Source: Cladopsammia gracilis
Lineage: Eukaryota > Cnidaria > Anthozoa > Scleractinia > Dendrophylliidae
Direction: 5' to 3'
Assembly (NCBI GenBank): GCA_022457155.1
Contig: JAJGOT010000039.1
Location: 21,001-85,000 of the forward strand
DNA length: 64,000 nucleotides
The translations under genes were made by a program, and so were the position numbers. Each line of letters opens with the position of its first letter. Within the stretch, counting starts at the first letter, position 1. The notes beneath the pieces are model-generated. The model did no database searches. It was not told the origin of the DNA and saw nothing but the letters and a program-made list of their open reading frames with translations. Below, one piece after another: positions 11,239 through 58,193 of the stretch.

Positions 11239-11253
11239 TCGGTAGTTGTAACA

Positions 11254-17866: not shown

Positions 17867-20800
17867 TTTTTGCTCGCAAACAAGTCTCACATCTTTTCTT
17901 TTCCGAATGTTTTCCATTGTCTTTCCAAATACTGCATTATTCATCAGTTTAAAGAAATCTTTTTCAAATGCATTTTTTGATTGCTGCCTCAGAATCACAT
18001 TCTTATCAATGAAAGACTTCAACCAACATTCCTCTTGAAATTTCACACCTCGATGAATTTCAATTAACTTACATCCTAATTCTAAGGCTTGTTTGAGAAG
18101 TCTATGATGCACAATCATCTTTTTCTTATTCCATAAGTTGGGAATCAATTTTTCCACTTGCCCCTTTTTCACACGTTCTGGAAGCGGTGGAAAGTCATTG
18201 AAATGATCATGTAACTTTCTTGGAATCTCAACATCCACTTCCAGAACGCAACTTTTATCTTTCCAATTCTTCAATTCTTTTTCATTCATCCATTCAAATC
18301 CACGTATAGGAAGAGGATTAGACATTGCCCAAGCATAAAGTCCATTTGCATCCCAATAAGCTAGATATTTAGAAGGTTGATTTTTATCAAAATCTTCTCC
18401 CATATATTTATTGTTTGCTTTTGCTTTTCGATGAAAGATGGTTGAAACTCCTCCACGAATTCCCAGCTCAAAGAATAACAACATATCTGGATCAGTCAAC
18501 AACTCCAATTCCACTTTGCTTTCCTTCAAAGCTGCATCCCATGCAAGACCAGGTGAAGTAAAAAACCAAGCAGGATCCAAATCATAATGAGTCCGACAAA
18601 CTTTTCGAAATTCTTGAAAGACATCTGCTAACAATGCAACATCAGCTAAGAGATAGATATCATGAAAGTCTCCCATGTTTTTTATTTTCATTTCATCCCA
18701 AACTCGTTTCGCATATGCCCAATCCTCATCACTCACCCCTTCATCATTTAATTCTGAAAAGAAATCATCTTTTTCAGGCAACGTTTCTATTTTGAATTTC
18801 TTAACAGAATCCAACCATTCATAGGGGAAGATTCCTTTCCTTTTGAATAACTCCCACTTATCTCCAAAGACTTTTTTCGTTTCAATGAAATCTTCATCCC
18901 TTAAATTTCTAACCAAGTTTCCTAAAGGTGCTGCCATGAAAGCTGCTGAATCAATAAATCGAATTTCATGCCAAATCTTTTTCATTTCTCTTTTTCCAGT
19001 TATCATACTAAAGATATTTTCCTCTTTTTCAATTTCAGCAACCGCAATCTTCTTGGAGAAAGAGATGTATTTCTCTTCATTATTCGGGAGGCAGCTTATA
19101 TCTCCTTCAATGTTTCCCAAAGCTTTCACAATGAAGTGCGTGTCATATCCCTTTAGATTGTGAAATACCACTGGAGTGAACTTTGGCTTTCTGAAATTCA
19201 GATTACATGATTCATGCGCTGCTCCTCTGAATTCACCTGTGAAATGACAGTGGTCTCGAACGCGTTCCTCATTCTTTTCAAATGGTTTTTCACATATCCA
19301 ACAGCAGACTGCTTCTTCAAATTCTTTTTTCTCTTTCCATCCAAATATCATTCTTTTGGGGAATGCCACTTCTTTTTGAATCTCCAAAACAAACTCACTC
19401 AGCTTTTCAACGAATTTCTTTCCAACATCTTCCTCGTCACTTTCTGCTCGGAAACGAACTGGTTTTCTTTTTACAAACTTTGATACCAAATGAAATGCGA
19501 ATGAACAAGCCACATGTTTCTGAAAGTTTTCTGTGAATGATTCTTCAGGTGGAGGTTGACAGGAAGAAATAGGAAGTTGTTTTGCTTCAAAATCTGCAAA
19601 GATGACAAACGGAAATTCCATTTTCCGGTTGAAGTTTTTGAATTTCAGTATACTTCCCTCTTCTGGCATCTCAATCTTTACAGCTTCAAACTGCGAACAA
19701 GATTCTTCATGCAGTTTTAATTTCTCTTCATCTGGAAAGTGATTGAGGCATCTTCGGCAAAAAACAACTGATCCATTATGATGAGTGATTTGATTTGAAA
19801 GAAGCCGACTAAGGTTCTTTATCCAGCAATAATGAGTTTTCTCAATAGATTTTAGAAATAACAAGTCAATCTTTCGTCCATCTATTTCTGATATTCTCAG
19901 AGGAAATATAATTTTATTTTCATATCCAAATACATTAATTGATAAACCTGGATTTCTTCTTTCAAACTTAGATATCTCAGTTAAAGGAGTTGGGAAAGAC
20001 AACCCATCCCAATTCAGCTCTTGGCTTTGTTCTCTCAACTTTGCTGTGATTCTCTCTGCATTTTTAACAACTGGAAACACTGCTCTTGTTACACACCATT
20101 TGAAACATTGATCATCTTCATTTTTCATGTTGACCACAGCTTTTCTTTTTGTTAAAGTTGCTGGAAGTTTAATAAAGGAATTCCCACTCAAAGGATTGAA
20201 GGAAGCAAAGGGAATAACCAATTCTAATACTCTTTCAAATCTCCAATTCGATCCTCTCTTTTGGAAATTTGCCATATGTTCCATTACTTTCTCAATCATA
20301 TCATCAATGGCATTCCATTTATTTGTTCCTTCAAGATTCATAAAGATTTGCGAGTGAAAGTCAGCTTTTTCTTCAATTTCTTCTCCAGTTGTCAACATAA
20401 CTCGAGACATTAAACATTTCAGAATGAATTTGACTTTTGTCATATTATTCTGACGAATGAGTGCTCCTACCTGTGGCCTCACTCTTCGGAAGAAATCTCT
20501 AGGAAGTTCTCCAGGAATTCCAAAAATAACAAATTCTCTTGCGAATCGTTTAAATGCGGAAGCCCTTTCAAGTTGTCTCAATTCCCTAACTCGCCGTTTC
20601 AACTTTTCTATTTTTTCATCCTTTTTTTTCTCAGGGAGTTTTGCTTTATCCAACCAATCCAACCAGTCTGTAATTGTTTCTTGTTGATTTTGAATTACTT
20701 GTGGAACTTCTTTGGGAGGAAATAGCTTTCTTTTAGGAATCAAAATAGGGACATTAATTAAAGGATTTTTCTGATTGAGTGGATTGAGAAACTTTTCCAA

Positions 20801-20878
20801 TTCAGCTTTTCTCAATTTTGACCAACCTTTTAATCCAGATGATCGAGCGATACTTTGAAATTCTTTTAATGTTTTCAT
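17156..20878 (-). CDS. Protein-primed family B DNA polymerase (pPolB), intact
   Basis: 1240 residues in one frame, starting at AATAAAATG. This is the Polinton replicative polymerase. From N to C: a SAP/Rho-N-like module (residues about 3-33); a Cys-Cys...His...Cys zinc-finger-like stretch (about 371-395); exonuclease motif I DFEAKQL (about 428); a Cys/His cluster resembling endonuclease VII-type zinc sites (CWICEK...DHCH, about 520-545); ExoII NLKGYD (about 573); and ExoIII YLLADVALLADVF (about 745). The polymerase motifs follow: A YWDANGLYAW (about 845), B KLMNNAVFGKT (about 980) and C FTDTDSLLY (about 1075). All key acidic residues are present, so it could be active. The last roughly 237 residues lie inside the TIR and are duplicated at 32316-33026. 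Confidence 0.95.
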   Translation of the reverse strand: MKTLKEFQSIARSSGLKGWSKLRKAELEKFLNPLNQKNPLINVPILIPKRKLFPPKEVPQVIQNQQETITDWLDWLDKAKLPEKKKDEKIEKLKRRVRELRQLERASAFKRFAREFVIFGIPGELPRDFFRRVRPQVGALIRQNNMTKVKFILKCLMSRVMLTTGEEIEEKADFHSQIFMNLEGTNKWNAIDDMIEKVMEHMANFQKRGSNWRFERVLELVIPFASFNPLSGNSFIKLPATLTKRKAVVNMKNEDDQCFKWCVTRAVFPVVKNAERITAKLREQSQELNWDGLSFPTPLTEISKFERRNPGLSINVFGYENKIIFPLRISEIDGRKIDLLFLKSIEKTHYCWIKNLSRLLSNQITHHNGSVVFCRRCLNHFPDEEKLKLHEESCSQFEAVKIEMPEEGSILKFKNFNRKMEFPFVIFADFEAKQLPISSCQPPPEESFTENFQKHVACSFAFHLVSKFVKRKPVRFRAESDEEDVGKKFVEKLSEFVLEIQKEVAFPKRMIFGWKEKKEFEEAVCCWICEKPFEKNEERVRDHCHFTGEFRGAAHESCNLNFRKPKFTPVVFHNLKGYDTHFIVKALGNIEGDISCLPNNEEKYISFSKKIAVAEIEKEENIFSMITGKREMKKIWHEIRFIDSAAFMAAPLGNLVRNLRDEDFIETKKVFGDKWELFKRKGIFPYEWLDSVKKFKIETLPEKDDFFSELNDEGVSDEDWAYAKRVWDEMKIKNMGDFHDIYLLADVALLADVFQEFRKVCRTHYDLDPAWFFTSPGLAWDAALKESKVELELLTDPDMLLFFELGIRGGVSTIFHRKAKANNKYMGEDFDKNQPSKYLAYWDANGLYAWAMSNPLPIRGFEWMNEKELKNWKDKSCVLEVDVEIPRKLHDHFNDFPPLPERVKKGQVEKLIPNLWNKKKMIVHHRLLKQALELGCKLIEIHRGVKFQEECWLKSFIDKNVILRQQSKNAFEKDFFKLMNNAVFGKTMENIRKRKDVRLVCEQKKFSKLVSKSNFEHFTIFNENFIGVHMKRVRMRFDKPVYVGQAILDVSKSLMYDFHYGYVKKKWKKAQLCFTDTDSLLYEIETDDLFVDISEDVSKHFDTSEFPETHPRVVDGTIKRMNKKVLGLMKDEACGGVIEEFVGLRAKCYSFKIHGGGGTKKCKGVKKRVVKKRITHEDYVLTLETNIPQMRLMNCIRSQKHEIFTQRINKTALCANDDKRYVKEDGISTWAWGHWKLVGT

Positions 20879-20879
20879 T

Positions 20880-20992
20880 TTATTTATAAAAATAAAAAAA
20901 AATAAAAAAATAAAAAAATAGAAAATAAAAAATAAAAAAAATAAAAAATAAAAAAAAATAAAAAATAAAAAAATATATAAAATATAAAAAAA
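20880..20992. promoter_or_regulatory. Poly(A/T)-rich divergent intergenic region
   Basis: Almost purely AAAAAT repeats lie between divergent PolB and HTH genes. It probably holds both promoters. TATATAAAATATAAA is the only motif-like element. Confidence 0.5.
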
Positions 20993-21470
20993 ATGAAGTT
21001 TTCAATTCAAGAAGAAGATGGAGAAAAAAATGTTTATTTTCTTTCAAACAAGCTGCCGCTGAGACAGGAATTCCGCATCTTACAATTTGGAGAGTTTTAA
21101 AGTCTGAAAATGATTTTTTCCGTAGAAGATCAGATAAAAAAGTTTTCTTTATCCGAAAAGAAAACGATTTAGCTTTCATTCAGATAGATGGGGAGGACTT
21201 TTTCACTCATGATGAAGTTTTTAATAAATTTGGTTTGAGTAGGACAGTTTTTTATAATCGGCTTTATAAAAATGGTGGAAAATACGTTTTAGACTCCAAA
21301 GATGTGTTGCATAAAATCACTTGGAAGTCTGATGAGATGGAGAAATCTTTCAAGATGATGAAAGATTATCTCATGTTGGGTGAAGTTCTTTCAAAAGAAA
21401 AAAGAGGAAAAAAAATCCCAGCTGATCTCAGAAAACGTTTAAAAACTTGGGATTTTTTTCAAGAGAAATA
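20993..21470 (+). pseudogene. HTH/NUMOD1-like DNA-binding protein, frame-shifted
   Basis: The start MKFSIQEE is shared with the outer element's 44190-44660. A frame change near 21040-21050 then leads into two NUMOD1-like modules. The first (ETGIPHLTIWRVLKS...FFRRRSDKKVFFI) and the second (HDEVFNKFGLSRTVFYNRL) each have helix-turn-helix-like cores. The gene is divergent from PolB, as in the outer element. Its last 43 bp overlap the convergent SSB-like gene. It probably binds DNA of the element; specific role unknown. Confidence 0.6.
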
Positions 21471-21952
21471 GTTGAACAAGTCACAGTTTGATAATTACCA
21501 CAAAAGATATGTTTTATCCATAAAGTTACTTTCCCACTTAGTTTTTCTCCAATGTGTCTCCATATATGAAAGTTCGATGGAACTCCAATGTCTAATTTAC
21601 AGAAAAGTTTTGGCATTTTACTTTTATCCGTTTTAATCAACTTGAAATCTGTTGCTTCAAAATCACCAATTTCGGAACGGGTTATTCTAATGAGATGATA
21701 AAGTCTTTCTGCAATGAGACTTTGGATATGATTTTCAATTTCCTGGATTTTAAAATGAACTTCTGGTGGAGATTGTTCCAGGTTTATTCCCAAAGAATAT
21801 CCGAAATGATTTTTAAATATCTTAAAGGAGCAAGGAATGGATAGAATAATATTTTTTCCTCGCTTTTGTAGAGGCATCAATGCAAAGACATTTTCCTTTA
21901 TTTTCTTAACTTGTGTTTCCCTTATTTCAATTTCACTTTCATTAAATTCCAT
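21428..21952 (-). CDS. Putative ssDNA-binding protein (inner Polinton)
   Basis: 174 residues. The C-terminal half (LFCKLDIG...LSGKVTLWIKHIFCGN) matches the outer element's protein at 43359-43976, whose counterpart in the AT-rich element is at 55360-56100. The alternating beta pattern, and the acidic tails of the outer and AT-rich versions, suggest an OB-fold ssDNA-binding protein that works with PolB. That assignment is inference. This copy lacks the acidic tail; its C-terminus overlaps the HTH gene end. An unrelated virion or regulatory role is possible. Confidence 0.5.
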   Translation of the reverse strand: MEFNESEIEIRETQVKKIKENVFALMPLQKRGKNIILSIPCSFKIFKNHFGYSLGINLEQSPPEVHFKIQEIENHIQSLIAERLYHLIRITRSEIGDFEATDFKLIKTDKSKMPKLFCKLDIGVPSNFHIWRHIGEKLSGKVTLWIKHIFCGNYQTVTCSTISLEKNPKFLNVF

Positions 21953-21991
21953 TTTTTTTTAAAAAAATTATTTTTTTTAATTTTATATAAA

Positions 21992-22330
21992 ATGGTAGAA
22001 GCAGATTGGAATGAAGAAGTAACTGAAGATAGAGTTGAATCACAAAACTGGATTCAATTTCATTTTATTCAAGACGAAGATGAAGAAGAAGTCTTGATTG
22101 AAGAAATTGGAGAAGAAGACTGGATTGAATTTATTGAAGAAATGATAAATCTCGATTTTAGTGATGATCTAGCAATAAAAATTAGAAATGAACTGGAAAA
22201 AATAGATTATCACCCAGAAGATTTTCTTAGGGATCTCACGGAATATGAATTTGATGGAAATGATTTTAAAGACTTCTCAGCAGAAGAAATTGTTGAAATG
22301 ATCTCAGAACCTCTTGATAATGTAGATTGA
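21992..22330 (+). CDS. Highly acidic protein, 112 aa
   Basis: The start at 21992 lies in TATATAAAATG. About a third of residues are Glu or Asp. No family recognised. It is divergent from the SSB-like gene and convergent with the fibre gene, from which a perfect hairpin separates it. A role as a basic-protein chaperone, or as a DNA mimic, is possible but unproven. No counterpart is seen in the outer element at this place. Confidence 0.55.
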   Translation: MVEADWNEEVTEDRVESQNWIQFHFIQDEDEEEVLIEEIGEEDWIEFIEEMINLDFSDDLAIKIRNELEKIDYHPEDFLRDLTEYEFDGNDFKDFSAEEIVEMISEPLDNVD

Positions 22331-22354
22331 TTCCACTCCAATGGAGTGGAATCA
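22328..22354. terminator. Perfect hairpin between convergent genes
   Basis: TGATTCCACTCC / GGAGTGGAATCA form a 12-bp stem with a 3-base loop. The stem includes the stop codons of both convergent genes (acidic protein and fibre). It may be an RNA 3'-end or insulating structure. Confidence 0.55.
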
Positions 22355-24154
22355 TATTTCAAAAATCAGCGAAAGATAAACTGCCTCATTTAACCCGATC
22401 ACCAGGTCATCTTGAGGGGAAAAAGAAAAATTAGTCATGCCTGGGATTTCAATTCCATCCCCAATATGAAATTTCTGTCTTCTGCTTCCATTTCCAGTCC
22501 AGGTTCTTTCAAATTTACGGTTATTCACTGACATGGAGAAAGTCAAATCAATCTTTGGGACATTCGTTATTGAGGCATGAAATAACCCCACTTCAACCAG
22601 TTTTGTTTTCATTGGGAAGAAAAGAAACCTCGAGGTGCTGCCGATGAATAAAAACTTTTTGCTATCATCATTTTTTCGAAAGACGCCGGTTTCCACAATT
22701 CTACTCCCAGACAAGTTGTGGCCATTCAAATCCAAGTCAGCCTCCATAACCATCTTCCCGCCCTCAAAAACGAAAGGGGAATCGAAGACGCTGCTTTCAA
22801 CATCAGGTTGAGAACCAGCAATGCCATATATGATCAACTTTGCGTTTCCTTTTTCGGCTGACTCGGCAGTTCCCCACCATTTCAGATCCAGGAAAATAAA
22901 TTCAGGTGGGGAAATCCTCCATTTATGCATATGGATAATGGATCTGGAATACCCCGAAAACTTCTTAGTTGATTGCTGATTGATATTCAGACTTGTGCTC
23001 ACGACATTAACACTCACACCATCCATTGACGCGGGGAAGAATTCAATGCAAATCGTGTATTCTCCCTCTGGGAGTTTGAACATATTGAATCCGAGTCTCC
23101 CATCGTATTCATTGAAATGATCTTTTGTTATTTGCAAGTCATACGCCTTCTTGTTGAAAAGATGCGGCGAATTTGAAAAATCAGTTATGCCAGTTACTTC
23201 CATATCATGTTCAGAGCTGGATTCATCCACATTTTCCATCAGATAGCGGAATGCGTCCTTTGGATGGGAGGTTGACGTGATATGCGATTCATTGACATAT
23301 TCTTTAAGATTCTTTTCTAATTCCATCGTGTGGGCTACCACACCTCCTATCGCATTATCCACATAAGATTTTGACGTGGGTTGATGCTTCAGAGTTGGCG
23401 CTGCAATATTGTTGATTTGTTGCGAGTTCATATCCAGGTTTCCGGTCATTGTTCCACCTTCCAACGAAAGCTTTTTCGCGGATTGGGCATCCACATATCG
23501 CATATTTGCGCCTTGGTCGGCAACTTCGGGATCTTTCACGTTAAAAATGGTGTGATTTCCCATATCCAAAGCCGTCTCCATTGGAAACGTCTCTTTGCGG
23601 GATAAGAAGATATTCTTACCATCATTGTAAGAGATCAGGTTGTTATAATGCGCTCCCAAATCATGCCATGTTTGTTGTTTTGAGTTTTTCACGTTGAAAA
23701 GTCCTTTCAAATCCAAATCTTTCGTGACTTCATGAGTGTGAGGGTGGAATTTTTTCAGAGTGATCATATTCACCACTGACAAATCCTGGTTTTCATCCGT
23801 GTCCAGATTGACGATCAATTTGCGATTCATTTCTATTTCCCCGGGGTTGATAAGTTTTTGTCCCCTGAGATCAAGATCCCCAGTCATATGGGAAGACCCA
23901 TCCACCTGGAGAGAATCTGCCCTCAATTGCGTTAATTTGTTTTCGAGGTTTGTTTCAAGAACATCAACTTGATGCTTTGTGATTGCATCACCCCTCGCTG
24001 TTCCTTCAGCGACATTGGTCAATTTTTTCCTTTGGATATCATAATCCCCTGCAGGCGTCAGCTTGAAACCAACGCCTGGCAACCCATCTTTTCCCGTCTG
24101 TCTTTGTGATTGACTTGTTTGATCCCGTAACATTCCATTAGAATAACTCATCAT
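22352..24154 (-). CDS. Fibre-like receptor-binding protein (inner Polinton)
   Basis: About 600 residues, starting at ATGATG after TTTAAA. The N-terminus has a short collagen-like GKDGLPG. A shaft of repeated tail-fibre-type units follows: (M)TG(D/N)LD(L/M)...I.N...P...YVD, for example HMTGDLDLRGQKL, LDMGNHTIFNVKDP, TGNLDMNSQQINN, each followed by KHQVD or YVD-type ends. The C-terminal roughly 110 residues form a separate head. Shaft and anchor are nearly the same as in the outer element (33822-35559), but the head differs from about the last LDLN onward. This is the pattern of viral or phage adhesins. It is likely a virion spike; trimerisation and receptor are inferred. Confidence 0.7.
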   Translation of the reverse strand: MMSYSNGMLRDQTSQSQRQTGKDGLPGVGFKLTPAGDYDIQRKKLTNVAEGTARGDAITKHQVDVLETNLENKLTQLRADSLQVDGSSHMTGDLDLRGQKLINPGEIEMNRKLIVNLDTDENQDLSVVNMITLKKFHPHTHEVTKDLDLKGLFNVKNSKQQTWHDLGAHYNNLISYNDGKNIFLSRKETFPMETALDMGNHTIFNVKDPEVADQGANMRYVDAQSAKKLSLEGGTMTGNLDMNSQQINNIAAPTLKHQPTSKSYVDNAIGGVVAHTMELEKNLKEYVNESHITSTSHPKDAFRYLMENVDESSSEHDMEVTGITDFSNSPHLFNKKAYDLQITKDHFNEYDGRLGFNMFKLPEGEYTICIEFFPASMDGVSVNVVSTSLNINQQSTKKFSGYSRSIIHMHKWRISPPEFIFLDLKWWGTAESAEKGNAKLIIYGIAGSQPDVESSVFDSPFVFEGGKMVMEADLDLNGHNLSGSRIVETGVFRKNDDSKKFLFIGSTSRFLFFPMKTKLVEVGLFHASITNVPKIDLTFSMSVNNRKFERTWTGNGSRRQKFHIGDGIEIPGMTNFSFSPQDDLVIGLNEAVYLSLIFEI

Positions 24155-24155
24155 T

Positions 24156-24788
24156 TTAAATGACCTCATCAAAATTTCGGGAAATGAATTTCCTCGGCTT
24201 ATCAATATAGAGGAAAGAATAAGGGTCATGCGTTGCCTTCACATAATCTTCTTTGGTGATGTTATTCTCTCTGCAGAGCATAGAAATTTCATTGTTGCTG
24301 GGGAATTCAAAGATGCAAAAATGCGAGCAATTTAAACGAATATCTTTTGGTGTTTTATAATAACTTTGCGAAAGATACACGACAGAGCAATTCTTATGTC
24401 TACCCCGGATAAAATAATCAATCAAGGGCTTTTGATTCTTCTCGCAAACAAAATCATCAAAGACAACCAGTTTTTGATTATCATCTGTCAATGCCGAAAC
24501 TGGGATGATTTCATCCGGGGATGCTTCCACGACGTCATACCCAGCTTCTTTGCTGATTGGGCGAAACGTTTTCAGCAGATGATGATATTTAGTTTGGTCA
24601 AGATTTTTCGCATAGAGATAAATTTTATCGTAGAAGAGCAAGCGGAAAATCATATCCAGAAGAACATTTGTTTTCCCCGATCCCGAAGGGCCACAGATCA
24701 ACATTCTGAAATTTTGATTGGGCATGAAAGGATGCAGCTGCTTGTATTTGGTGATTGGATCATTGAAATCATAATTTGGAATCTTCAT
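24156..24788 (-). CDS. FtsK/HerA-type genome-packaging ATPase (A32-like), intact
   Basis: 210 residues from AATAAAATG. Walker A is GPSGSGKTN (residues about 31-39). Walker B is KLVVFDDF, followed by the LSQSY sensor region. This is the Polinton packaging ATPase that would pump DNA into the capsid. It lies directly next to the fibre gene, with a 1-bp gap, on the same strand. It is divergent from the core gene at 24895 across an 11-bp tandem repeat. Same length as the copy at 35561-36193. Confidence 0.9.
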   Translation of the reverse strand: MKIPNYDFNDPITKYKQLHPFMPNQNFRMLICGPSGSGKTNVLLDMIFRLLFYDKIYLYAKNLDQTKYHHLLKTFRPISKEAGYDVVEASPDEIIPVSALTDDNQKLVVFDDFVCEKNQKPLIDYFIRGRHKNCSVVYLSQSYYKTPKDIRLNCSHFCIFEFPSNNEISMLCRENNITKEDYVKATHDPYSFLYIDKPRKFISRNFDEVI

Positions 24789-24807
24789 TTTATTATGTTC
24801 AACATCA

Positions 24808-24873
24808 TGTTCCACATTTATTCCACATTTATTCCACATTTATTCCACATTTATTCCACATTTATTCCACATT
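24808..24873. repeat. 11-bp tandem repeat in divergent promoter region
   Basis: About six copies of CACATTTATTC between ATPase and core gene. The outer element has a different tandem repeat (8-bp ATTATGAG) in the same place (36226-36292). Confidence 0.85.
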
Positions 24874-24894
24874 AATTTATATCTAGTGAATAAA

Positions 24895-25910
24895 ATGAGT
24901 TTACTAAAGTGGAAAGAACTTGCACAAAGCAAAGCTGCTTTGGGAAATAAAATTAATTACGTTCATGATCGCATCACCAAGAAAAAGTTAGGTGAACAAA
25001 CAAGTCAAACAGAATATGAAAAAGTATTCAAACCCATAACATCAAAATTAGATGATGTGGTTGCATCGAATTTGAAACCCCCTCCAAGACTTAGGAAAAA
25101 GAAAGTCATGGGAGAAAAACAAGGGATTGATTATTATCCAGACGTAGATCCATTTGAAGAAATGGATGTTGAAGGCCTGTTTGATGCTGATGAGGCAGCT
25201 GTTGCACCGCAAGCAGCTAAGCAACTTCCAGAAAGACCGCCAACATATGAAGAAGTACTGGCAGAGTTAGAAGGTGAACCATCTATATATGAAGAGGGCG
25301 TTCCTGATTATGCTATGGAAGAGAGTGAAGAAGAGAAAGACGAGGAATCTGAATCTGGGAAGACGCTCAAGAAGACTTTGAAGAAGACGCAGCTAATAAC
25401 ATACTAGATCACCTGGGTTTAGTAAATTATGACACAACGGAGAAAGCCTTAGCTCAGCCAAATGTTCCAGTAGAAAAGAAAAAAAATTTTATTGAAAAAA
25501 GCATTATAAAGCCGGCTTTTGATAAAAGAGGTCAACTGAACAACCGCAACAGCTATCTGAAAAAAAAATTCAAGAAAGGAGAAATAACTAAAGATGAAAA
25601 GGATGTAGAAATGGGGCAAATAATAGCGCAAAGAAAAGTAGTGAATGATTACATGAAATATTATAGAAACAAACTCAAGTCATTTAAAGGCTCTGGCGTC
25701 CGAAAAAGATACGGGCGTGGTATTACATTTTTCTCCGATCCCAAAGAGCTGCTCCAGAAGCTTGAAGTCATCGTTGGGTCCATCCTTGCTGGGAATACAA
25801 ACGTTGACTTGAGAAATATTGGAGTTGCAATTCTCGATCTTCTCCTGAAAGAAGCAGTGATCAATAGATCCCAGCATGAGAAGATCTACAAAAACTATTT
25901 CAAACCATAA
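24895..25910 (+). pseudogene. Polinton core protein (about 330 aa), frame-shifted
   Basis: The start MSLLKW lies in GAATAAAATG. The N-terminal part is basic. The middle is strongly acidic (EESEEEKDEE) and holds PPTYEE, a PPxY late-domain-like motif. The C-terminus (25620-25910) is helical with DPKELLQKLEVIVGSILAGN. A one-base loss near 25365 breaks the frame; the outer copy 36299-37289 shows the intended continuity. The AT-rich element has a relative at 61949-63159. No known family; always divergent from the ATPase, so probably structural or assembly-related. Confidence 0.65.
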
Positions 25911-25911
25911 A

Positions 25912-26682
25912 ATGGAAAGAGAAATCGTTTTATCCTCCTTTTCCGTCAAGACTGGGGGAAACAAACCAGAAAATGTCACAACAAAATTCAATCGACCCAT
26001 TGTTTTGGATCCAAATTCTCAATATGTTGTTGGGTTGAACAGAATTATCAATATGAGTTTTACGTGGTATAACATCAATGCGGCATTGAAAAATCAGCTG
26101 ATCAGATTCAGCTCTGATGGTGGGAAAACATTTTCCGATATCACCTTTCCTGCTGGAGTTTGGGATTATTCCACAATAAATGCGGCAATTCGAAAAGCAA
26201 CAGGCCCACTCGCAGGCTCCACCCCAGGAAAGAATGAAAAATTCCCAATCAATCTTGCTTTCTCTCTCACAACTTTCAGAGTAACAATCACACTGGAAGA
26301 AAACTGGCAACTTGATTTCACTCAATCCAATTTCAACGATCTCGTTGGTTTTGAGAAAAAGATTCTGAAAGACAAAGTTAATGTTGGCCCCAGAGTTCCA
26401 AACCTCAGTCAAGATACTGATATGTTGAACGTTCATTGCGATCTTACAAATGATTCGCTTGTGGATGGGAAAGAGAGTGATATCATCTTCTCCTTTTCAA
26501 CATCTGTTCTGCAGGCCTCCTATAGTTTCACTTTGGAACCCATGAGAATCACATTCAGCCCTGTGAATAAAAACACAATAAGTTCCATTCGGATTTATAT
26601 CACTGACGGCAAAAGGCGGGTTGTTGATTTGAATGGAGCCGATACGGCGTTCTCGCTTATCTTGAAAAAGCAAATAAAATGA
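25912..26682 (+). CDS. Penton-like minor capsid protein, intact
   Basis: 256 residues, start in CATAAAATGG. Begins MEREIVLSSFSV; conserved FNRPI.LDP..QYVVGLNRI and SFTWYNI stretches, also present at 37291-38031 and 59501-60265. Position just before the small basic protein and MCP, together with length, fits the Polinton minor capsid (single jelly-roll penton) that caps five-fold vertices. The fold cannot be verified by eye. It starts 2 bp after the core gene ends and its stop overlaps the next ATG (AAATGA), so the genes are tightly packed. Confidence 0.75.
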   Translation: MEREIVLSSFSVKTGGNKPENVTTKFNRPIVLDPNSQYVVGLNRIINMSFTWYNINAALKNQLIRFSSDGGKTFSDITFPAGVWDYSTINAAIRKATGPLAGSTPGKNEKFPINLAFSLTTFRVTITLEENWQLDFTQSNFNDLVGFEKKILKDKVNVGPRVPNLSQDTDMLNVHCDLTNDSLVDGKESDIIFSFSTSVLQASYSFTLEPMRITFSPVNKNTISSIRIYITDGKRRVVDLNGADTAFSLILKKQIK

Positions 26683-27113
26683 AACCTTATGAATTCTCTC
26701 GTTATTATCACCCCCAGCTGGGGCGATTTGTCTTCCGGCACAAAGGAACAGGTTTGATTGTGGACAATATTTTCAAACCAATGAGGAAGGTCGCATCCGC
26801 AGTTTTCAATAAATTCGCAAAACCCATTGCGAAAAAAGCATTGGAATCAGGTATTTCTCACGTTGGGGATAAACTCGGCAAAAAAGCAGTTGAAAAATCT
26901 GGCGATTTAATCATGAAAAAACTGGAAAATATGAGAATTGGGAGCAAAAAACCGCCAGGTAAAAAACAACCAGCGAGCGAACGCGCAGCCCGCGCGAGCC
27001 GAGCGAAGCTAGCTCGACCACAATCAACCCGACCGCAGGGAGAAAGTTCTGATGCTATATTGAACAGACTTATATCGGGACAAGGCATCCGAAAAAGAAA
27101 AAAAATGATATAA
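26679..27113 (+). CDS. Small basic virion-type protein with an adenain-like site
   Basis: 144 residues; its ATG overlaps the penton stop. Central amphipathic helices (IAKKALESGISHVGDKLGKKA) are followed by a variable low-complexity arginine/alanine linker derived from the AGCGAAGC repeat. A conserved C-terminus LNRLISGQG then precedes a basic RKRKK end. ISGQG fits the adenovirus protease consensus (M/I/L)xGx-G, so the tail may be clipped during maturation. Related to 38028-38440 and 60283-60627. Its role is probably a DNA-condensing or membrane-active minor core protein, by analogy only. Confidence 0.6.
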   Translation: MKPYEFSRYYHPQLGRFVFRHKGTGLIVDNIFKPMRKVASAVFNKFAKPIAKKALESGISHVGDKLGKKAVEKSGDLIMKKLENMRIGSKKPPGKKQPASERAARASRAKLARPQSTRPQGESSDAILNRLISGQGIRKRKKMI

Positions 27114-27114
27114 A

Positions 27115-28393
27115 ATGGCTTTTCGATCGAATGAATATCTTCAAAGAAATGAATTAGTGCGCTTCCAGCTGGATGACACAATCCGAGCTCCAGCTAATAA
27201 TCAACCTCAACAAAAAAATGGTTATAAATTCACGATTAATGACCGATCCGCATTCTACGATTGGTATAATGCTTATTTCGAGGTGCAATTTCAACTCCAA
27301 AAACTGGCGGATGGTGCCGGATATGCGGCAGCTGACAGGATCACAGTGATCAATGGCGCTCATTCCCTGATTAAACACCTGACAATCCGATCTGCGGGAA
27401 AGATTATTTATGACACTGATAATCTGCACAAGGTCTGTTTCGCAAAGAATTTGCTGGAATACTCCGACGACTTCAGCAGATCAGTCGCCAAGAACAGTTT
27501 CTGGTATTTGGATACTGATGCAACAACCGCTAATACGAATGCAGGATTTGAAGCTCGCAGGATACAATCTCAAGCAGTTCAAAACAATGGAAACGGCGGT
27601 GCAAAGAACATTAACACGATCATTCCCCTGAATCGTTTTTCCTTTTTCGAAGAGTTGGAAGATAAGATGCTTGTGCCTATGCAGCTTCAATTCGAGATAA
27701 CACTTCAAGATGATGGGGAACTCATTCATATGGCAAACGGCGTTGATGCTGGAAGAGTTGTGCTGAATCGATTTTTGCTTTGGGTTCCTAGGTTGACTCC
27801 CAAAGATTCTCTTTATGACAAATTTGTCAGCTCATTCCTGAAAGAAACGCAATGGAAATATCTGAGGGAAATGTATCAGCAATCAGCTCCCTCGCAATCA
27901 TCAGGATTCTTCCAGATATCTGCAAGTATTGATAATGTGAGGCATATTTTTGTCTGGCTGAAAAGAACTGCCCCACCCAATGATGACCCTGCAGAAGATA
28001 ACCCTTATCTTATGGACACTTTCAAGCTGAATGCGGCAGATGCAAACTCATCCTTGTCGACCTGCAGGCTAGAGTATGGCAATGGGGTTTTCTACCCGGA
28101 AACAGAGTATGACAGTGAAAGCAAAGTAAGAATATTCCAGGATGTCATGGCTTATGCAATGAGGAAAAATGATTTTAACACAGCTTAATCTGGCCAATTT
28201 CAATTCTCTTTTCCCGTTGATCTATTTCAATCTGACTTATCAAACTGAAAAACCGACAAGAGATCCCAAGCAGTTGATATTCAGATATCGATTGAACGCA
28301 GATGCAGCTGCAAACTTCAATGTACATGCGATAGTTCTCTATGAAGAAATGGTGAAAATTGATAAAATTGGAAATGAACTGGTTATCGTGTGA
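27115..28393 (+). pseudogene. Major capsid protein, frame-shifted near its end
   Basis: The start lies in ATATAAAATGG, 2 bp after the previous gene. About 430 residues in the ancestral frame, as at 38442-39728. Typical Polinton MCP features include an early DWYNAYFEVQF strand and a two-part architecture, compatible with a double jelly-roll. After 357 residues a short deletion near 28180 puts the last 70 residues (NLANFNSLFPLIYF...) into another frame (28189-28393). As read, the protein would be truncated. Confidence 0.8.
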
Positions 28394-28430
28394 AGTGTGA
28401 AGTGTGAAAAAACATATGTTATCATTTAAA

Positions 28431-29306
28431 ATGACAACATATCACCCATATAAAGTAAATTTATCTGAAGGGCAAAAAAACAAGCTTGGAAGAGCATTCC
28501 GAACAAACAGCCCTATCACCCTGAGATTGGGTGACAATCAAACAAGCGGAAGTGATGAGCTGATGCTAACAGCCAATCAAATTAAAAGAATCGCAAAAGC
28601 AAAATCTCTGGGAAAGGGAGTTGAGATAAAGATAACAAAAACACAAATTAGAAAAGTAATGAAACAAGGTGGAAGTCTATATTCTGCTATTGTTCCTTTA
28701 GCTAAAACACTGATACCCACCCTGGGTAAAACACTTGGGTTGTCAGCACTGGCTGGTTCAGCGAGTGAAGGAGCGAGTCAAGTTGTAAAAGCAATCAGTG
28801 GAAAGGGAGCGGGTCAAGTGGGTGGATTTCTCATTCCCCAAAATAAAATTCAGAAACTGATTGACAATAAACATTTGTTGACAAATAAGCAGAAACAGGA
28901 CATTTTGGTTGCCCTTAAATCAGGAGGACAACTGACGATAAAACCATCAGCAAAACAATCTGGTGGATTGTTGGGAACTGTGCTGGCTTCCATTGGAATT
29001 CCACTGGCGCTGGACATGGTGAAAAATTTGTTTGGGAAGGGAGCGGCGCAGCCGCGACCTCGACTGAAAGGAGAAGGCGCTCCAAGAGTTGGAAGGCCAA
29101 AAGGAAAGGGAGCGCCAAGATTGGGGACTCCTTACCCATATCACGCGTTGAATCCACCTCCCCCATTCGTTGGAAGCTGGGGAAAAGGGATGGGTAAAAA
29201 AAAATCAAAAAAGGGAGCGAAGCGACCGCGCCAGCAGGGCAAAGGACTTCTGCTGGGGGACAACAGTCCATTCAACAACATCCCAATTCTCGGGGCGATT
29301 CTTTGA
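28431..29306 (+). CDS. Basic glycine-rich structural protein, frameshift donor for the protease
   Basis: 291 residues; start MTTYHPYKVNL in TTTAAAATG. A middle region resembles membrane-active glycine zippers (GLSALAGSASEGASQ, SGGLLGTVLASIGIPLALDM). A Pro/Gly/basic tail ends NIPILGAIL. Motifs ISGKG and LFGKG fit (M/I/L)xGxG protease sites. An A9 run (29196-29204) and A_AAA_AAG (29207-29213) lie in phase near the end. The -1 frame from there is open into the protease. Counterparts are at 39765-40880 and a stub at 59006. Probably an internal virion protein processed by the protease. Confidence 0.6.
   Translation: MTTYHPYKVNLSEGQKNKLGRAFRTNSPITLRLGDNQTSGSDELMLTANQIKRIAKAKSLGKGVEIKITKTQIRKVMKQGGSLYSAIVPLAKTLIPTLGKTLGLSALAGSASEGASQVVKAISGKGAGQVGGFLIPQNKIQKLIDNKHLLTNKQKQDILVALKSGGQLTIKPSAKQSGGLLGTVLASIGIPLALDMVKNLFGKGAAQPRPRLKGEGAPRVGRPKGKGAPRLGTPYPYHALNPPPPFVGSWGKGMGKKKSKKGAKRPRQQGKGLLLGDNSPFNNIPILGAIL
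29196..29213 (+). promoter_or_regulatory. Candidate -1 frameshift site into the protease
   Basis: A_AAA_AAA (29198-29204) and A_AAA_AAG (29207-29213) are both in the zero-frame phase of the upstream gene. The -1 frame contains no stop before the protease, which lacks an ATG. A 7-bp stem CCAGCAG / CTGCTGG starts about 17 nt downstream, which is rather far. In the outer element the run has ten A's and the two frames are already fused. Confidence 0.45.
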
Positions 29307-29767
29307 AGCCGAAGTTCGTGAACAAACCTCTGAGCAACCTTGATCTTCTCCAGTGGATTGATTTTCTGAAAATTCCCAATTTCAAAGGGATTTTCGCTAG
29401 GGATGAAGCGAGGCTACGAGAACACAGCCCCTGCATTATCAATCTTGATTCGCTTGAAAATGCCGGAACTCACTGGGTGTGTTGCGTTCCTGGTCGCTTC
29501 GCTCCCGGTCGCTTCGTTCCCTCTGGGAAATTCACGTGGTATTTTGACTCATTTGGAATGGGATTTCCCCAAGAATTCAGAAGTTCCAAACCGGTGATTT
29601 GGAACAGCAGTCAGTATCAAAACATAGACAGTGTCCTTTGCGGGTATTATTGCCTGTTTTTCCTCCATCAATGGTCGCAGGGGAAAGATTTCTATGATAT
29701 TCTCAAACCTCTCAGTCTAACTGATACCAGGTTTAATGAAAGATTCATAAAAAAATATTTCGATTGA
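29303..29767 (+). CDS. Adenain-like cysteine protease (maturation protease)
   Basis: Adenovirus-type (C5 family) protease. Catalytic residues are visible in order: His in GTHWVCC, Asp in YFDSFG, Gln in SSQYQN and Cys in CGYYC. The domain is about 150 residues. No ATG exists in this frame between the frameshift site at 29213 and the catalytic His, so it is probably made as a -1 frameshift extension of the upstream protein; 29303 is a TTG. A VPGRFAPGRF insert before the Asp comes from the AGCGAAGC-type repeat and is absent in the outer copy. It would cleave virion precursors at LxGxG-type sites. Confidence 0.85.
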   Translation: MKPKFVNKPLSNLDLLQWIDFLKIPNFKGIFARDEARLREHSPCIINLDSLENAGTHWVCCVPGRFAPGRFVPSGKFTWYFDSFGMGFPQEFRSSKPVIWNSSQYQNIDSVLCGYYCLFFLHQWSQGKDFYDILKPLSLTDTRFNERFIKKYFD

Positions 29768-29769
29768 AA

Positions 29770-30578
29770 ATGAAGTCATATTGCGTGAAAGAGAAAAAAC
29801 AAACTGAATGCACCAATCCATCTGGATATATGACCGCAAAAAATGGAAGAAAGATGTGGTTTTGCCATTGCGCTTCCTGTGGAATCAAAAAAACAAGATT
29901 TGTGAAAAGTTCGGGAAACTGAGTCTGCCCCCACAAGGTGGGGGCATTGGTGAATTAGCATTGACTGGCGTTGCGCATGCTCTTCCCTGGCTCGGGAAAA
30001 AAACAGTTGAAATGGGTCGTTATGGAGCCAGTGAATTGTTGAGAAACAAAAAAGCTCTGAAAAAAGCATTGGATTTTGCCCTGGACAAGATGAAACCATT
30101 TCTTGCCAAAACCTCTTCCGATATGCTGAATGAGCTGAGCACGGCGATAAGGCCAAACAGAAAATATAAGACAGATCGAGCAGATTTAGATGGGGGTGCT
30201 TTAGATGTTCATTCCCTGATTGGAAAGCTGCCAAGGCCAAAGAAAGGATTCACCCTCCCAGGCCATAATTATACCGGCCCGTATAACCCATTGGATAAGC
30301 AAGTTAGATTCGATGAAAAGGGAAAGATTCTCGAAATTTATCAACAACCCACAGGAAAAACAGATGCAGTTGCTATGTAGCACGATGTGGATTATTCAGT
30401 CTGCGCAAAACAATTAAACCCACGTCAATGTAAAAATAAAGCAGACAGGAAAATGGTTGCCGCTTTGGATTCCATTCCTTGGAAAGAAAGGCAATGGGGT
30501 CATACTTTGGCGCGAAATACCATTGATGTAAAACAAAAACTTGGACTTGGCGTTTCAAAAAACGGGAAAAGATTTTGA
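29770..30578 (+). pseudogene. Phospholipase A2 (parvovirus VP1-type) protein, broken
   Basis: The start MKSYCVKEKK is 2 bp after the protease stop. An N-terminal Cys module (CHCASCGIKKTRF) lies ahead of a helical region with glycine zippers. The C-terminal PLA2-like domain has the calcium loop YTGPYNPLDKQ (near 30272) and the catalytic HDVDYS (near 30382). The fold would open host membranes on entry, as in parvoviruses. A frameshift near 29918 and a TAG just before the catalytic His (30378-30380) break this copy. It ends RF-stop at 30578, overlapping the integrase frame. Confidence 0.75.
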
Positions 30579-30599
30579 GTGAAGGCTGGGCTCAAAATC
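30557..30599 (+). promoter_or_regulatory. -1 ribosomal frameshift signal, PLA2 to integrase (inner copy)
   Basis: Slippery heptamer A_AAA_AAC at 30557-30563, in the PLA2 phase (TCA AAA AAC). A 7-nt spacer, then a perfect 9-bp stem GATTTTGAG (30571-30579) / CTCAAAATC (30591-30599) with an 11-nt loop. The PLA2 stop TGA lies in the stem. The -1 frame opens directly into integrase, which has no ATG. Confidence 0.75.
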
Positions 30600-31570
30600 T
30601 GGCAAATGAGTTACATAAACCAGTCAGGCGACGCTTCCCAAAACGGCGAGTCATTTCATATGGGATTGATCAAATATGGGCAGCTGATCTGGTTGAGATG
30701 GGGAAATATTCGAGGTGGAACAAAGGGATGAAATATCTCCTGATGGTGATCGATGTCTTCTCAAAGTTCGGTTGGATTCGACCCCTGAAAGACAAGCGAG
30801 GACAACCAGTTGCCGATGCTTTCCGATCTATATTCAGGGAGCGAGCGAGTGAAACGAGCAAGCGAAGCGCCGCGAAGTGAGCCCCGACGCGAAAACCGAA
30901 AATGCTTTGGACTGATAAAGGAAGTGAATTTTTCAACGGAATAATGAAAGATCTGCTTGATAAGAATGGGATAAAATTGTATGTCACGGAAAATGAAGAG
31001 AAATCATCCGTGGTTGAACGTTGGAATAAGACGATGAAGAACCGACTCTTCCAGATGTTTTCTGCTAACAATAATACGATTTATTTTGACAAATTGGGCA
31101 AATTAGTGGATGAATATAACCACCGTTTTCATTCCCGTATTCGAATGAGCCCCGCAGAGGCGAGTCAAAAGAAAAATGAGAGGCAGGTTTTTGCTAATTT
31201 ATATGGAGATTTAGTTTATGCTAAACGCGATCCAGCTAAATTCAAAGTCGGTGACAAAGTCCGAATTTCAAAATATAAACGAAAGATATTCGACAAAGGT
31301 TTCACACCGAACTGGACAGAGGAGATATTTATTATCGACGAGGTTTTGAACACAAATCCTGTAACGTATAAATTAGTTGATCTGTTGGGAGAAAAAATCA
31401 CCGGATCATTTTACGAGGCGGAACTTCAAAAGACAACGCAAAATATTTTCCGTATTGAAAAGGTTATACGCCGCGATCAGAAGAAAAAGAAAGCTTTCGT
31501 TAAATGGAAAGGATATTCCGACAGATTCAATTCGTGGATTCCGTTGAGTGATGCGGAAAAGCTTGGCTAA
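30575..31570 (+). pseudogene. Chromodomain retroviral-type integrase, interrupted by a 48-bp insertion
   Basis: DDE integrase: first Asp in AADLVEMG (near 30683), second Asp in WTDKGSEFF (near 30912) and Glu in VVERWNK (near 31015). The C-terminal SH3-like region and chromodomain (RIEKVIRRDQ...KWKGYSDRFNSWIPLSD) follow. A 48-bp in-frame insert of AGCGAAGCG-like sequence (about 30845-30893) adds 16 codons including a TGA, which would truncate it. There is no ATG at the start; translation is expected through the frameshift signal at 30557. The integrase inserts the element with 6-bp duplications, and the chromodomain may target chromatin. Confidence 0.85.
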
Positions 31571-31915
31571 AAAACTGTCTAACGCGTTAGACACAAAATT
31601 GAAATTTCAATTTCTTCCCCAAAAAACTGTCTAACGCGTTAGACAAAATTGAAATTTCAATTTCTTCCCCAAAAAACTGTCTAACGCGTTAGACAAAATT
31701 GAAATATTCCAATTTGTTCCCGAAAAACTGTCTAACGCGTAATACGCAAAATTAAAAGTCCAATTTCTTTCCCGAAAAAACTGTCTAACGCGTTAGACAC
31801 AAAATTGAAATATATAAATTGCTTCCCCAAAAAAACTGTCTAACGCGTAATACTCAAAATTAAAATGTCAATTTCTTCCCCGAAAAACTGTCTAACGCGT
31901 TAGACATAATTGAGA
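31570..31915. repeat. Tandem repeat of about 52 bp with ACGCGT palindromes
   Basis: Seven copies of a unit containing AAAACTGTCTAACGCGTTAGAC plus an AAATTGAAATTTC stretch. The core TCTAACGCGTTAGA is a perfect palindrome in most copies. In two or three copies it is altered to ACGCGTAATAC. Lies just after integrase. Could be a protein-binding array or replication element; unknown. Confidence 0.85.
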
Positions 31916-31929
31916 TATGGCATTTTTTG

Positions 31930-32315
31930 ATTGGCCGCCATATGTCAATAACCTGGCAGCTGGGCGCGTCAGAATATGAATGTTTGTCATTCATATTCAT
32001 GATTTCAAAACACCGCTTTCTTTCAATTCCCGATAAATTTCCCCGAGGATGAAACTTTGCTTTGATCAAGATGGAAAATAGAAAAACTCAGCATGAGGAA
32101 ATTTGTGAGAAGATTGGGGTGTAATTTTCCTCTCCCTAAAAAAGCTGGAGGAAAAATTCAAATATATTTTTCCCCTGAGAAAGAAATTTGAAATTCAAAT
32201 TCTTTTTCATTTGACTATTTCGTTTTCGAACCTGCGGAAATAAATTCAGTTTTCATGTGGGTTGAAATTCAAATTATTTTTCATGTGGGTATTTCGTTTT
32301 CGAACCTGCGGAAAT
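31930..32315. other. Scrambled remnant of the ancestral left-arm genes
   Basis: 31975-32070 is a reverse-complement relative of the outer element's 14540-14640 (3' end of the acidic coiled-coil gene). The stretch to about 32110 resembles 13540-13600. A duplicated ATTTCGTTTTCGAACCTGCGG tract occurs at about 32217 and 32291. No complete gene. Confidence 0.6.
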
Positions 32316-33026
32316 AAATTCAGCAAATTGGTTTCCAAATCAAACTTTGAACACTTTACAATCTTCAATGAAAATTTCATTGGGGTTCATATGAAGCGGG
32401 TAAGAATGAGATTCGACAAGCCAGTTTATGTAGGCCAAGCGATATTGGATGTATCGAAAAGTCTGATGTATGACTTCCATTATGGATATGTGAAGAAAAA
32501 ATGGAAAAAGGCTCAATTGTGTTTCACCGATACTGATTCGTTGTTGTATGAAATTGAGACGGATGATTTGTTTGTTGACATTTCGGAAGATGTGTCGAAA
32601 CACTTTGACACCTCTGAATTTCCAGAAACACATCCTCGAGTTGTTGATGGAACGATAAAAAGAATGAATAAAAAAGTTTTGGGTTTGATGAAAGATGAAG
32701 CTTGCGGTGGAGTGATTGAAGAATTTGTTGGGTTGAGAGCAAAGTGTTATTCCTTTAAAATTCATGGCGGAGGTGGAACAAAGAAATGTAAGGGTGTGAA
32801 AAAGCGAGTTGTGAAAAAACGAATAACGCATGAAGATTATGTATTGACTTTGGAAACAAATATTCCACAAATGAGACTTATGAATTGCATTCGAAGTCAG
32901 AAGCATGAGATTTTCACACAAAGAATTAATAAGACAGCTTTGTGTGCTAATGACGATAAAAGATATGTGAAAGAAGATGGAATTAGCACTTGGGCATGGG
33001 GGCATTGGAAACTTGTAGGAACATGA
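32262..33026 (+). pseudogene. Duplicate PolB C-terminal fragment in the right TIR
   Basis: From 32316 on, it encodes the same roughly 237 residues as the end of PolB (17156-17866), including motif C FTDTDSLLY, but lacks exonuclease and motifs A and B. The first 18 codons come from unrelated sequence. It is not a functional polymerase. It arose because the TIR extends into the gene. Confidence 0.85.
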
Positions 33027-33343
33027 AGAGAAGGAGGGGAAGTAGTTTTGATATGATTGTTCTGGCTCACAGGGGAAAACGCCTCTAAAGTTAAATGAAA
33101 AAAGTATGGGAAGAACCCACATTTTTACCACATTTAATAGAATGCTAAAAAGGAGGCATTTTATTAAATGTGGGGAATAAGTTAGGAAATCCCTAAAATG
33201 AGGGAAAATAATTCGTTGACTTTTTGAAAAAGCTTCTGCTAAAAAAGTAAGGGAAGAAAACCGGTTTGAACCGGTTTCAACCGGTTTTATTTTAAAAAGA
33301 GGCGTTTTCACCTGTGAGCCAGAACTCTCATATTCTCACTACT
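32316..33343. repeat. Inner Polinton right TIR (1028 bp)
   Basis: Reverse complement of 16839-17866 with only one visible substitution (CACCTG versus CCCCTG near the tip). Carries a second copy of the PolB 3' end. Confidence 0.93.
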
Positions 33344-41052: not shown

Positions 41053-41856
41053 ATGAAGTCATATTGCGTGAAGGAGAAAAAACAAACTGAATGCGTGAAA
41101 CCATCGGGATATATGGCCGCAAAAAATGGCAGAAAGATGTGGTTTTGTCATTGCGCTTCCTGTGGAATCAAAAAGACAAGATTCCTGAAGGGAAACTGAC
41201 GCGGCCTCCGCAAGGCGGGGGCATTGGCGAACTTGCGCTGACCGGCGTCGCGCATGCTCTTCCCTGGCTCGGGAAAAAGACAGTTGAAATGGGGAGATAT
41301 GGAGCCAGTGAATTATTGCGAAACAAAAAAGCTCAGAAAAAAGCATTGGATTTTGCCCTGGACAAGATGAAACCATTTCTTGCCAAAACCTCTTCCGATA
41401 TGCTGAATGAGCTGAGCACGGCGATAAGGCCAAACAGAAAATATAAGACAGAGCGGAAAGATTTGGATGGCGCTGGGGTTGACGTTCACAGCCTGATTAT
41501 GAAACTGCCAAAACCAAAGAAAGGTTTCACCCTCCCAGGGCATAACTTCACAGGCCCCGGGAAACCCACTAGATAAGCAAGTCAGATTCAATGAAAAGGG
41601 AGAAATCCTCGAAATTCTGCAGCAGCCCACGGGAAAAACAGACGCAGTTGCTATGCAGCACGATGTTGATTATTCAGTCTGCACAAAACATTCAAACCCG
41701 CGCAAATGTAAAAACAAAGCAGACAGGAAAATGGTTGCCGCTTTGGATGCGATTCCCTGGAAGGAAAGACAGTGGGGTCATGCTTTGGCACGAAACGTCA
41801 TTAATGCGAAACAGAAACTTGGTTTGGGTGTCCCAAAAAACGGGAAAAGATTTTGA
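41053..41856 (+). pseudogene. PLA2 protein (outer Polinton), frame-shifted
   Basis: Start MKSYCVKEKK, 1-2 bp after the protease stop. Same Cys module (CHCASCGIKKTRF) and glycine-rich helices. Frameshifts occur near 41190 and in the calcium loop near 41565 (FTGPGK..). The catalytic block HDVDYS (near 41661) and the C-terminus to RF-stop at 41856 are intact. Ends over the frameshift signal. Confidence 0.72.
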
Positions 41857-41877
41857 GTGAAGGCTGGGCTCAAAATC
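41835..41877 (+). promoter_or_regulatory. -1 ribosomal frameshift signal, PLA2 to integrase (outer copy)
   Basis: A_AAA_AAC at 41835-41841 in the PLA2 phase (CCA AAA AAC), 7-nt spacer, stem GATTTTGAG (41849-41857) / CTCAAAATC (41869-41877). Identical architecture to 30557-30599. Confidence 0.78.
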
Positions 41878-57244: not shown

Positions 57245-58193
57245 AAAATCTACCAAATCACTCAAAGGAATCCACGAATTAAATTTATTAGGATAACCAC
57301 TCCATTTAACGAAAGCTTTTTTTTCTTATTATCTCGTTTCAATACTTTCTCAATTCTAAATGTTTCTTGTTTTGCTTTTTGGAACTCTTGCTCATAAAAA
57401 GATCCTTTTACTTCTTCTCCCATCAAATCAACAATTTTATAGGTAATAGGTTTTGTAATTAAAACTTCATCAACCACAAATATTTCTTCTTTCCAGTTTG
57501 GAGTATATCCTTTATCAAATACAGGTCTTTTTTACTTTGATATACGAACTTCATCTCCAATTTTAAATTTTACCTTTCCAGGTTTCAAGTAAATCAAATC
57601 CGAATATAAATGAGCATAAAATTTTTCTTCATTTTTCTTTTCACTTGCTTTAAATGGAGTCATTTTTACACTAGAATGTCTTGTTTTATTATAATCATTA
57701 ACTAATTTATCAAGTTCACCCAGTAAACAGTATTGTTATTTATACTTCACATTTTAAGCATTCTATTTTTAATTGTTTTATTCCATCTTTCAACAATACT
57801 TGAGTTTTCTTCATTCTCAGTGTGATATAATTTAATTCCATTCTTTTCAAGAAAATCCTTAAAATGTTTACTAATAAATTCAGAACCTTTATCTGTCCAA
57901 AGCATTACTGGCAAACGTTTACTTTTTTTAAATATATCATCAAATGCTTTACTAATACTTTCAGTCTTTTTGTTTTTCAAAGGTTCGATCCATCCATACT
58001 TGCTAAAAATATCAATTACCATTAGTAAATATTTTATTCCTTTATTCCATTTACTAAATGTTTGCATTTCAACCAAATCAGCAGCCCAGATTTCATCAAT
58101 CCCATTTGATATTACAGTTCTCTTTGAAAACATTCTTGTGATTGGTTTATGTAACTCTTTGGCTAAATGTTGAGCCCAATCACTATTACTCAA
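57245..58193 (-). pseudogene. Chromodomain integrase (AT-rich Polinton), broken
   Basis: 57747-58193 is open: Asp in AADLVEMQ, Asp in WTDKGSEF, Glu in IVERWNK. 57262-57477 carries the SH3-like/linker portion, and the chromodomain end (NSWIPLSD) is in another frame near 57250. Frameshifts and stops lie at 57480-57745. It begins at TTG (58193) without an ATG, again right after a PLA2 gene with an A_AAA_AAC site. Confidence 0.82.

Follow-up and report, generated by a model that had tools for sequence, protein, structure and literature searches.

A probable −1 programmed ribosomal frameshift signal between the PLA2 and integrase frames of Polinton-type elements in Cladopsammia gracilis

The junction between the PLA2 and integrase frames in a Polinton lineage that encodes both a PLA2-domain protein and a chromodomain integrase very probably represents a −1 programmed ribosomal frameshift signal. 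This junction is present in three copies in a window of 64,000 nucleotides from Cladopsammia gracilis (contig JAJGOT010000039.1 of assembly GCA_022457155.1, positions 21,001 to 85,000), and it combines an in-phase slippery heptamer of the X_XXY_YYZ type with an open downstream reading frame in −1 and a putative stimulatory structure downstream, for which 5-9 nt is the expected distance. As detailed below, the −1 frameshift is favoured because the register of the heptamer is maintained, the stem covaries, low synonymous variation is limited to the element, and a subfamily with TCG in place of a possible TTG start has nevertheless retained the signal.

In the inner copy, the heptamer A_AAA_AAC (30557..30563, forward strand) is in phase with the PLA2 stop: AAA (30558-30560) and AAC (30561-30563) are codons of the frame that terminates at TGA 30576-30578, a stop codon that starts 12 nt and ends 15 nt past the heptamer. 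The heptamer is followed by the 7-nt spacer GGGAAAA (30564..30570) and by stem 1, of which the 5′ arm GATTTTGAG (30571..30579) contains the stop codon and forms 9/9 pairs with the 3′ arm CTCAAAATC (30591..30599). Within the hairpin loop lies the 5′ arm of a second stem, GGCTGG (30584..30589), with its 3′ arm CCAGTC at 30620..30625. The phase, the spacer and the perfect 9-bp stem described for this copy in the initial annotation were thereby confirmed, as was the matching arrangement in the outer copy, since all 43 nt of the signal at 41835-41877 are identical between the two. In the outer copy, also on the forward strand, the heptamer is located at 41835..41841, stem 1 (41849..41877) pairs 41849-41857 with 41869-41877, and the arms of stem 2 are GGCTGG in the loop (41862-41867) and CCGGCC (41894..41899). 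The third copy, on the reverse strand, had been reported to share this arrangement at 58211-58169. Indeed, its heptamer (58205..58211) is in phase and its stop is at +19 as in the others, but stem 1 (58169..58194) is not a perfect 9-bp helix; it consists of the 6-bp GTTGAG/CTCAAC (58194-58189 with 58174-58169) plus a bulged 3-bp GGC/GCC. Stem 2 of this copy is formed by GTGATTGG in the loop (58183-58176) and CCAATCAC (58138..58145).

The integrase frame is in −1 and open through the heptamer in all three window copies, overlapping the PLA2 frame by ~9 to 17 codons. As noted initially, it has no ATG at the junction, the first one being found 141, 141 and 78 nt past the heptamer start in the inner, outer and third copy, respectively. 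As a measure of chance occurrence, the 6,586 codons of 13 open reading frames in the window contain an in-phase A_AAA_AAC four times and any X_XXY_YYZ (Y being A or T, and Z not G) 43 times.

The inner copy belongs to a Polinton-type element (16839..33343) bounded by 1,032-nt inverted repeats (16839-17870 and 32312-33343) that are 100% complementary and flanked on both sides by AATTCA, which gives it the terminal repeats and 6-bp target duplication of a Polinton/Maverick. The PLA2-domain gene, followed by the integrase, is close to the right end of this element. From stop to stop, the PLA2 frame spans 29808..30578 on the forward strand, where it is interrupted by an in-frame TAG (30378-30380) and ends at the TGA in stem 1. 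The integrase frame, with rve and chromodomain, runs from the slip site at 30560 to 31570 on the same strand and is interrupted by TGA 30878-30880 within a short GC-rich insert (30839-30895). Directly 3′ of it, a tandem array with a period of ~50 and 6.6 copies (31569-31913) includes five exact copies of the palindrome GTCTAACGCGTTAGAC, which is also present in loci L011 and L018 of the genome survey. The outer integrase frame is open from the slip site (41838..42818, forward strand), and its rve domain and chromodomain, as found in Polinton/Maverick integrases, both score above the Pfam cut-offs; tblastn placed a frame change in the outer PLA2 within 41530-41603. The third copy is interrupted by several stops. 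The window copies are thus partly decayed. For the inner open reading frame, the PLA2 match in Pfam scored below the curated cut-off (17.5 versus 23.9 bits), and most of the listed database relatives of this frame carry PF08398. As regards the protein-primed family B DNA polymerase expected of a Polinton/Maverick, a 1,280-aa open reading frame (17156-20998) contains Endonuclease_7 and an FTDTDS motif and matched no DNA polymerase family at E values up to 10, while the open reading frames scanned, with family profiles alone, gave no Pfam or NCBIfam match to a major capsid protein, packaging ATPase or adenain-like protease. Elsewhere in the window we observed retrotransposon-type open reading frames with reverse transcriptase, RNase H and protease (2904-7163, forward strand) and with Integrase_H2C2 and rve (10135-11253, reverse strand), a C-terminal remnant of another integrase identified by tblastn (14934-15052, reverse strand), and an inverted repeat with 177-nt arms that are 98% complementary and 72 nt apart (54365-54790).

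No relative was found in IMG/VR, GTDB contigs or phage records, and the DNA comparison was therefore limited to the window's own assembly (878 Mb, 1,469 contigs). The queries P0003, P0013 and P0020 yielded at least 125, 127 and 126 genome matches, respectively, the P0003 and P0013 sets being overlapping. From these, 120 loci were combined with the three window copies into a sample of 123 junctions (107 distinct), which represent one genome and three related families. The heptamer was kept in 122 of the 123, with the variant AAAAAAT in L120, and was lost only in L083. Among the distinct junctions it stood in the register of the integrase frame in 105 of 107, the exceptions being L083 and L095, and the zero-frame stop was a TGA at +19 (100 junctions) or a TAG at +25 (five). 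Of the 101 loci with at least 300 nt of upstream sequence, 89 had a PLA2 frame without stops over 90 or more codons. For family 2, translation of the ~90 nt upstream of the junction gave KLGLGLPKKT...KN in the PLA2 frame at six loci; L124 has a stop further upstream in this frame, and in L123 the linker is one base shorter. Inserted sequence upstream, 6 and 15 nt long in family 2 and 30 nt long in L018, L038 and L088, left the phase intact. The 30-nt inserts, like the one in the inner integrase, are short GC-rich insertions in coding sequence, and some ENA relatives (P0014, P0123, P0127) show variable inserts there as well. Of the integrase matches listed, 120 of 126 for family 2 and 108 of 125 for family 1 contained no stop; these counts are biased to intact copies because the best-scoring matches were listed.

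Stem 1 differs in sequence between the families. It is GATTTTGAG/CTCAAAATC in family 1 and GGTTTCGAG/CTCGAAACC in the five loci of subfamily 1b, in both cases as a 9-bp stem after a 7-nt spacer, and GTTGAG/CTCAAC with a bulged extension in family 2, where the spacer measures 7 nt if the bulged part is counted with the stem and 10 nt if only the 6 bp are. Across 19 distinct sequences, 4 of the 9 pairs were altered on both sides and 92.4% of the cells paired, as compared to 0 or 1 double-changed pair and at most 46.7% of paired cells in slid controls; four double-changed pairs were reached in 6 of 500 shuffles. The number of further pair types was not above the shuffles, of which 74 of 500 reached the observed value. 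The two comparisons of aligned junctions that the initial annotation had proposed, namely heptamer phase and stem covariation, thus both came out in favour of the signal within the window's own genome. The fold of the hairpin gave z scores of −3.0 for the inner and outer copies, −3.9 for L119 and −4.0 for L073, and weaker ones for the third copy (−1.6), L093 (−1.6) and L113 (−1.4). Folds of 100 nt were not unusual (z −0.2 to −0.8) with a folding program that does not consider pseudoknots.

The hairpin loop can also pair with sequence further downstream, which would create a potential H-type pseudoknot and make the signal ~26 nt longer than the 9-bp hairpin. This second stem was first spotted by eye and tested afterwards. 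Its far arm is complementary to the loop in all 77 family-1 sequences analysed, reading CCAGCC (40), CCGGCC (35) or CCAGTC (2) opposite GGCTGG. In a set of 12 chosen sequences, 5 of the 15 pseudoknot pairs were double-changed and 94.6% of the cells paired, versus no double-changed pair and at most 50.6% in slid controls. Stem 2 was paired in every cell with letters, three sequences of another stem-2 register having gaps. Further pair types did not exceed the shuffles here either (241 of 500 reached the observed number), and an uninterrupted stem 2 was absent from 6 of 56 distinct sequences, which are family-1 variants with a 14-nt loop. Stem 2 extends to 10-11 bp in family 2 and 8 bp in the third window copy. 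When the downstream codons were randomised synonymously, stem 2 reached P values of 0.0025 and 0.0015 in two family-2 sequences; the third window copy gave 0.09, and the other eight sequences ranged from 0.03 to 0.44. Stem 2 thus clearly beats synonymous randomisation only in family 2; the P values elsewhere are modest because 2-3 bases of pairing are guaranteed between the codons of W (TGG) and P (CCN).

Silent variation was then compared along the integrase frame in 77 distinct family-1 sequences, all with a loop of 11 nt; L083, subfamily 1b, family 2 and sequences with loops of another length were left out. Codons 6-15, the ten hairpin codons, start at the stop of PLA2 and beyond it serve a single reading frame. 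Synonymous differences per pair amounted to 0.0026 in these codons, as opposed to a minimum of 0.0761 and a median of 0.1438 in 71 downstream ten-codon windows and a mean of 0.214 in the 20 upstream PLA2 codons. Per codon, variation was high in codons 16-18, which form the loop separating the stems (0.33-0.50), low in the 3′ arm of stem 2 (codons 19-22, 0.00-0.07) and back to 0.49 in codons 23-24; some later codons were quiet as well (0.025 in codon 25 and 0.000 in codon 27). This distribution of silent changes shows selection at the RNA level on the junction element in the window's genome.

Conceivably, the integrase could be made from a transcript of its own, arising from a promoter or by splicing, in which case the conserved block would be a DNA or splicing element. 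Of the 107 distinct junctions, 34 have an ATG at some point in the surrounding stretch of open integrase frame, so that longer ATG-started products are possible there. However, a separate transcript predicts neither a heptamer that survives in-frame upstream insertions of 6, 15 and 30 nt, nor a stop 12 or 18 nt past the heptamer, nor paired double changes in the stem, and we give this explanation next to no likelihood. Counting in favour of the frameshift, the earliest ATG of the integrase frame within the sequence covered encodes the Met of a VEM motif in 96 of 102 loci, the family-2 loci being too short for this count. This Met lies downstream of D38, a residue that is invariant in a twelve-sequence integrase alignment and whose offset assigns it to the first catalytic Asp in the integrase of PFV, which we take to be D128; a start at VEM would therefore remove D38.

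Another way to reach the integrase frame would be termination of PLA2 at the TGA followed by reinitiation on the codon that overlaps it, which is TTG (within TTGA) or, among relatives, ATG (within ATGA). The codon that overlaps the PLA2 stop is TTG in 117 of the 122 heptamer-bearing loci, and at position 2 the 112 ENA integrases listed have S in 90, R in 19 and N in 3, which fits an overlapping TGA. In addition, two of the best 120 ENA integrases, P0019 and P0110, have Met where the window has Leu, and ATG may thus be present at the overlap in another subgroup. The initial annotation had held that an ATG-initiated integrase in a relative would speak against frameshifting, and these two proteins are in part such a case, but the surveyed codon was TTG or, in the remaining five loci, TCG. 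The latter constitute subfamily 1b, in which TTG has become TCG and the PLA2 stop lies elsewhere, 18 nt past the heptamer, yet the heptamer and a re-paired 9-bp stem are retained. Reinitiation at TTGA can therefore not serve subfamily 1b. Moreover, it requires neither an in-phase heptamer nor covarying stems, and to our knowledge TTG starts are poor in eukaryotes, which leaves reinitiation as a very unlikely explanation.

Protein relatives were consistent with a −1 shift at this site. Of the best 120 among 966 PLA2 matches, 104 contain the tail anchor K-Q/A/E-K/Q-x-G-x-G, followed by KN in 77, LN in 22 and neither in five, two of which stop at the anchor. An NNA codon is available for the residue preceding KN in 77/77, and the residue after KN is V, G or A in 76/77, as predicted by A_AAA_AAC_GNN. 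The LN tails, following the last G of the anchor, would fit GGU_UUA_AAY. At 80% identity the 104 anchored proteins, which are related to one another and not independent samples, fall into 12 clusters, 11 with KN and three with LN members when a GKKN tail is scored as KN. Among the best 120 of 4,368 integrase matches, P0019, P0053 and P0110 are the three that extend upstream of the overlap, and each of them has KKR, which is what the −1 frame encodes as AAA AAA CGN. A protein search for integrases with such upstream-extended calls returned only its own query.

A single frame for PLA2 and integrase was found in P0019, in L022, whose slip site contains a seventh A, and in L064, by way of a different frame upstream; we attribute these cases to sporadic indels. 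L022 and the run of six A could also point to transcriptional slippage, by which RNA polymerase would add one A to the run and part of the mRNA would encode a one-frame fusion. Such slippage, however, would work without the 7-nt spacer, without covarying stems and without a drop in synonymous change 3′ of the A run, and the 22 of 104 anchored ENA tails with LN and not KN would, judged from the protein, suit U_UUA_AAY. We therefore regard transcriptional slippage as extremely unlikely.

Signals for −1 frameshifting are used by retroviruses (Gag-Pro-Pol) and coronaviruses (ORF1a/1b). The junction resembles them in its in-phase X_XXY_YYZ heptamer, short spacer, H-type pseudoknot and downstream frame without a start of its own, and it resembles the retroviral system also in that the integrase is part of the shifted product. 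It differs in belonging to a Polinton-type DNA element, in having a PLA2-domain protein and not Gag upstream, and in being known from sequence. In Polinton relatives, −1 frameshifting has been proposed for adintovirus Penton and Hexon-Adenain, where slippery sites were, in the accessible part of that paper, suggested by KnotInFrame prediction and called hypothetical; these are other genes, neither PLA2 nor integrase (PMC11071296). Sf Mavericks likewise combine a CAP with parvovirus-like PLA2 and a chromodomain (rve-chromodomain) INT, but their CAP is the fourth small open reading frame, INT is listed before CAP, and no fusion frameshift is described in the accessible part of that paper (PMC5803895). 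In the accessible parts of four further papers, the term frameshift refers to mutations, sequence errors or another virus (PMC8097293, PMC10120064, PMC12721341, PMC12567637). In line with the initial remark that no such case is described in Polintons, we found no PLA2-integrase frameshift in the open-access literature, surveyed mostly without full text.

According to the −1 frameshift reading, most ribosomes would end PLA2 synthesis at the stop 12 nt past the heptamer (18 nt in subfamily 1b), while a fraction would pause at the downstream H-type pseudoknot, slip back from A_AAA_AAC to AAA_AAA and continue in the integrase frame, so that a PLA2-integrase fusion would be made in a small and fixed proportion. 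That slippage takes place, and at what rate, we infer from the sequence. Polinton lipases have been suggested, in the accessible part of one paper, to act in entry as in parvoviruses, and a fusion could on that account carry the integrase in the particle (PMC4642659); our guess is that integrase enters the particle on PLA2 in this way. More broadly, and with slightly less than even confidence, we propose that this lineage of dsDNA viruses or transposons has a Gag-Pol-like arrangement, in which frameshifting would tether integrase to a virion-type PLA2 protein. On this view, integrase would be packaged in a small and constant proportion, would accompany the genome into the next cell and would integrate it there; the signal itself would be ancient in these elements, and its heptamer could be swapped from A_AAA_AAC to U_UUA_AAY. 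The frameshift would explain integrase frames without a usable ATG, and an integrase annotation that begins at the first ATG would lose a catalytic Asp. Furthermore, the heptamer and pseudoknot may serve as a marker for recognising the lineage. A conserved frameshift that joins integrase to a membrane-active virion-type protein would thus offer a testable answer to how Polinton integrases are expressed and delivered, and it would bear on particle formation by these elements.
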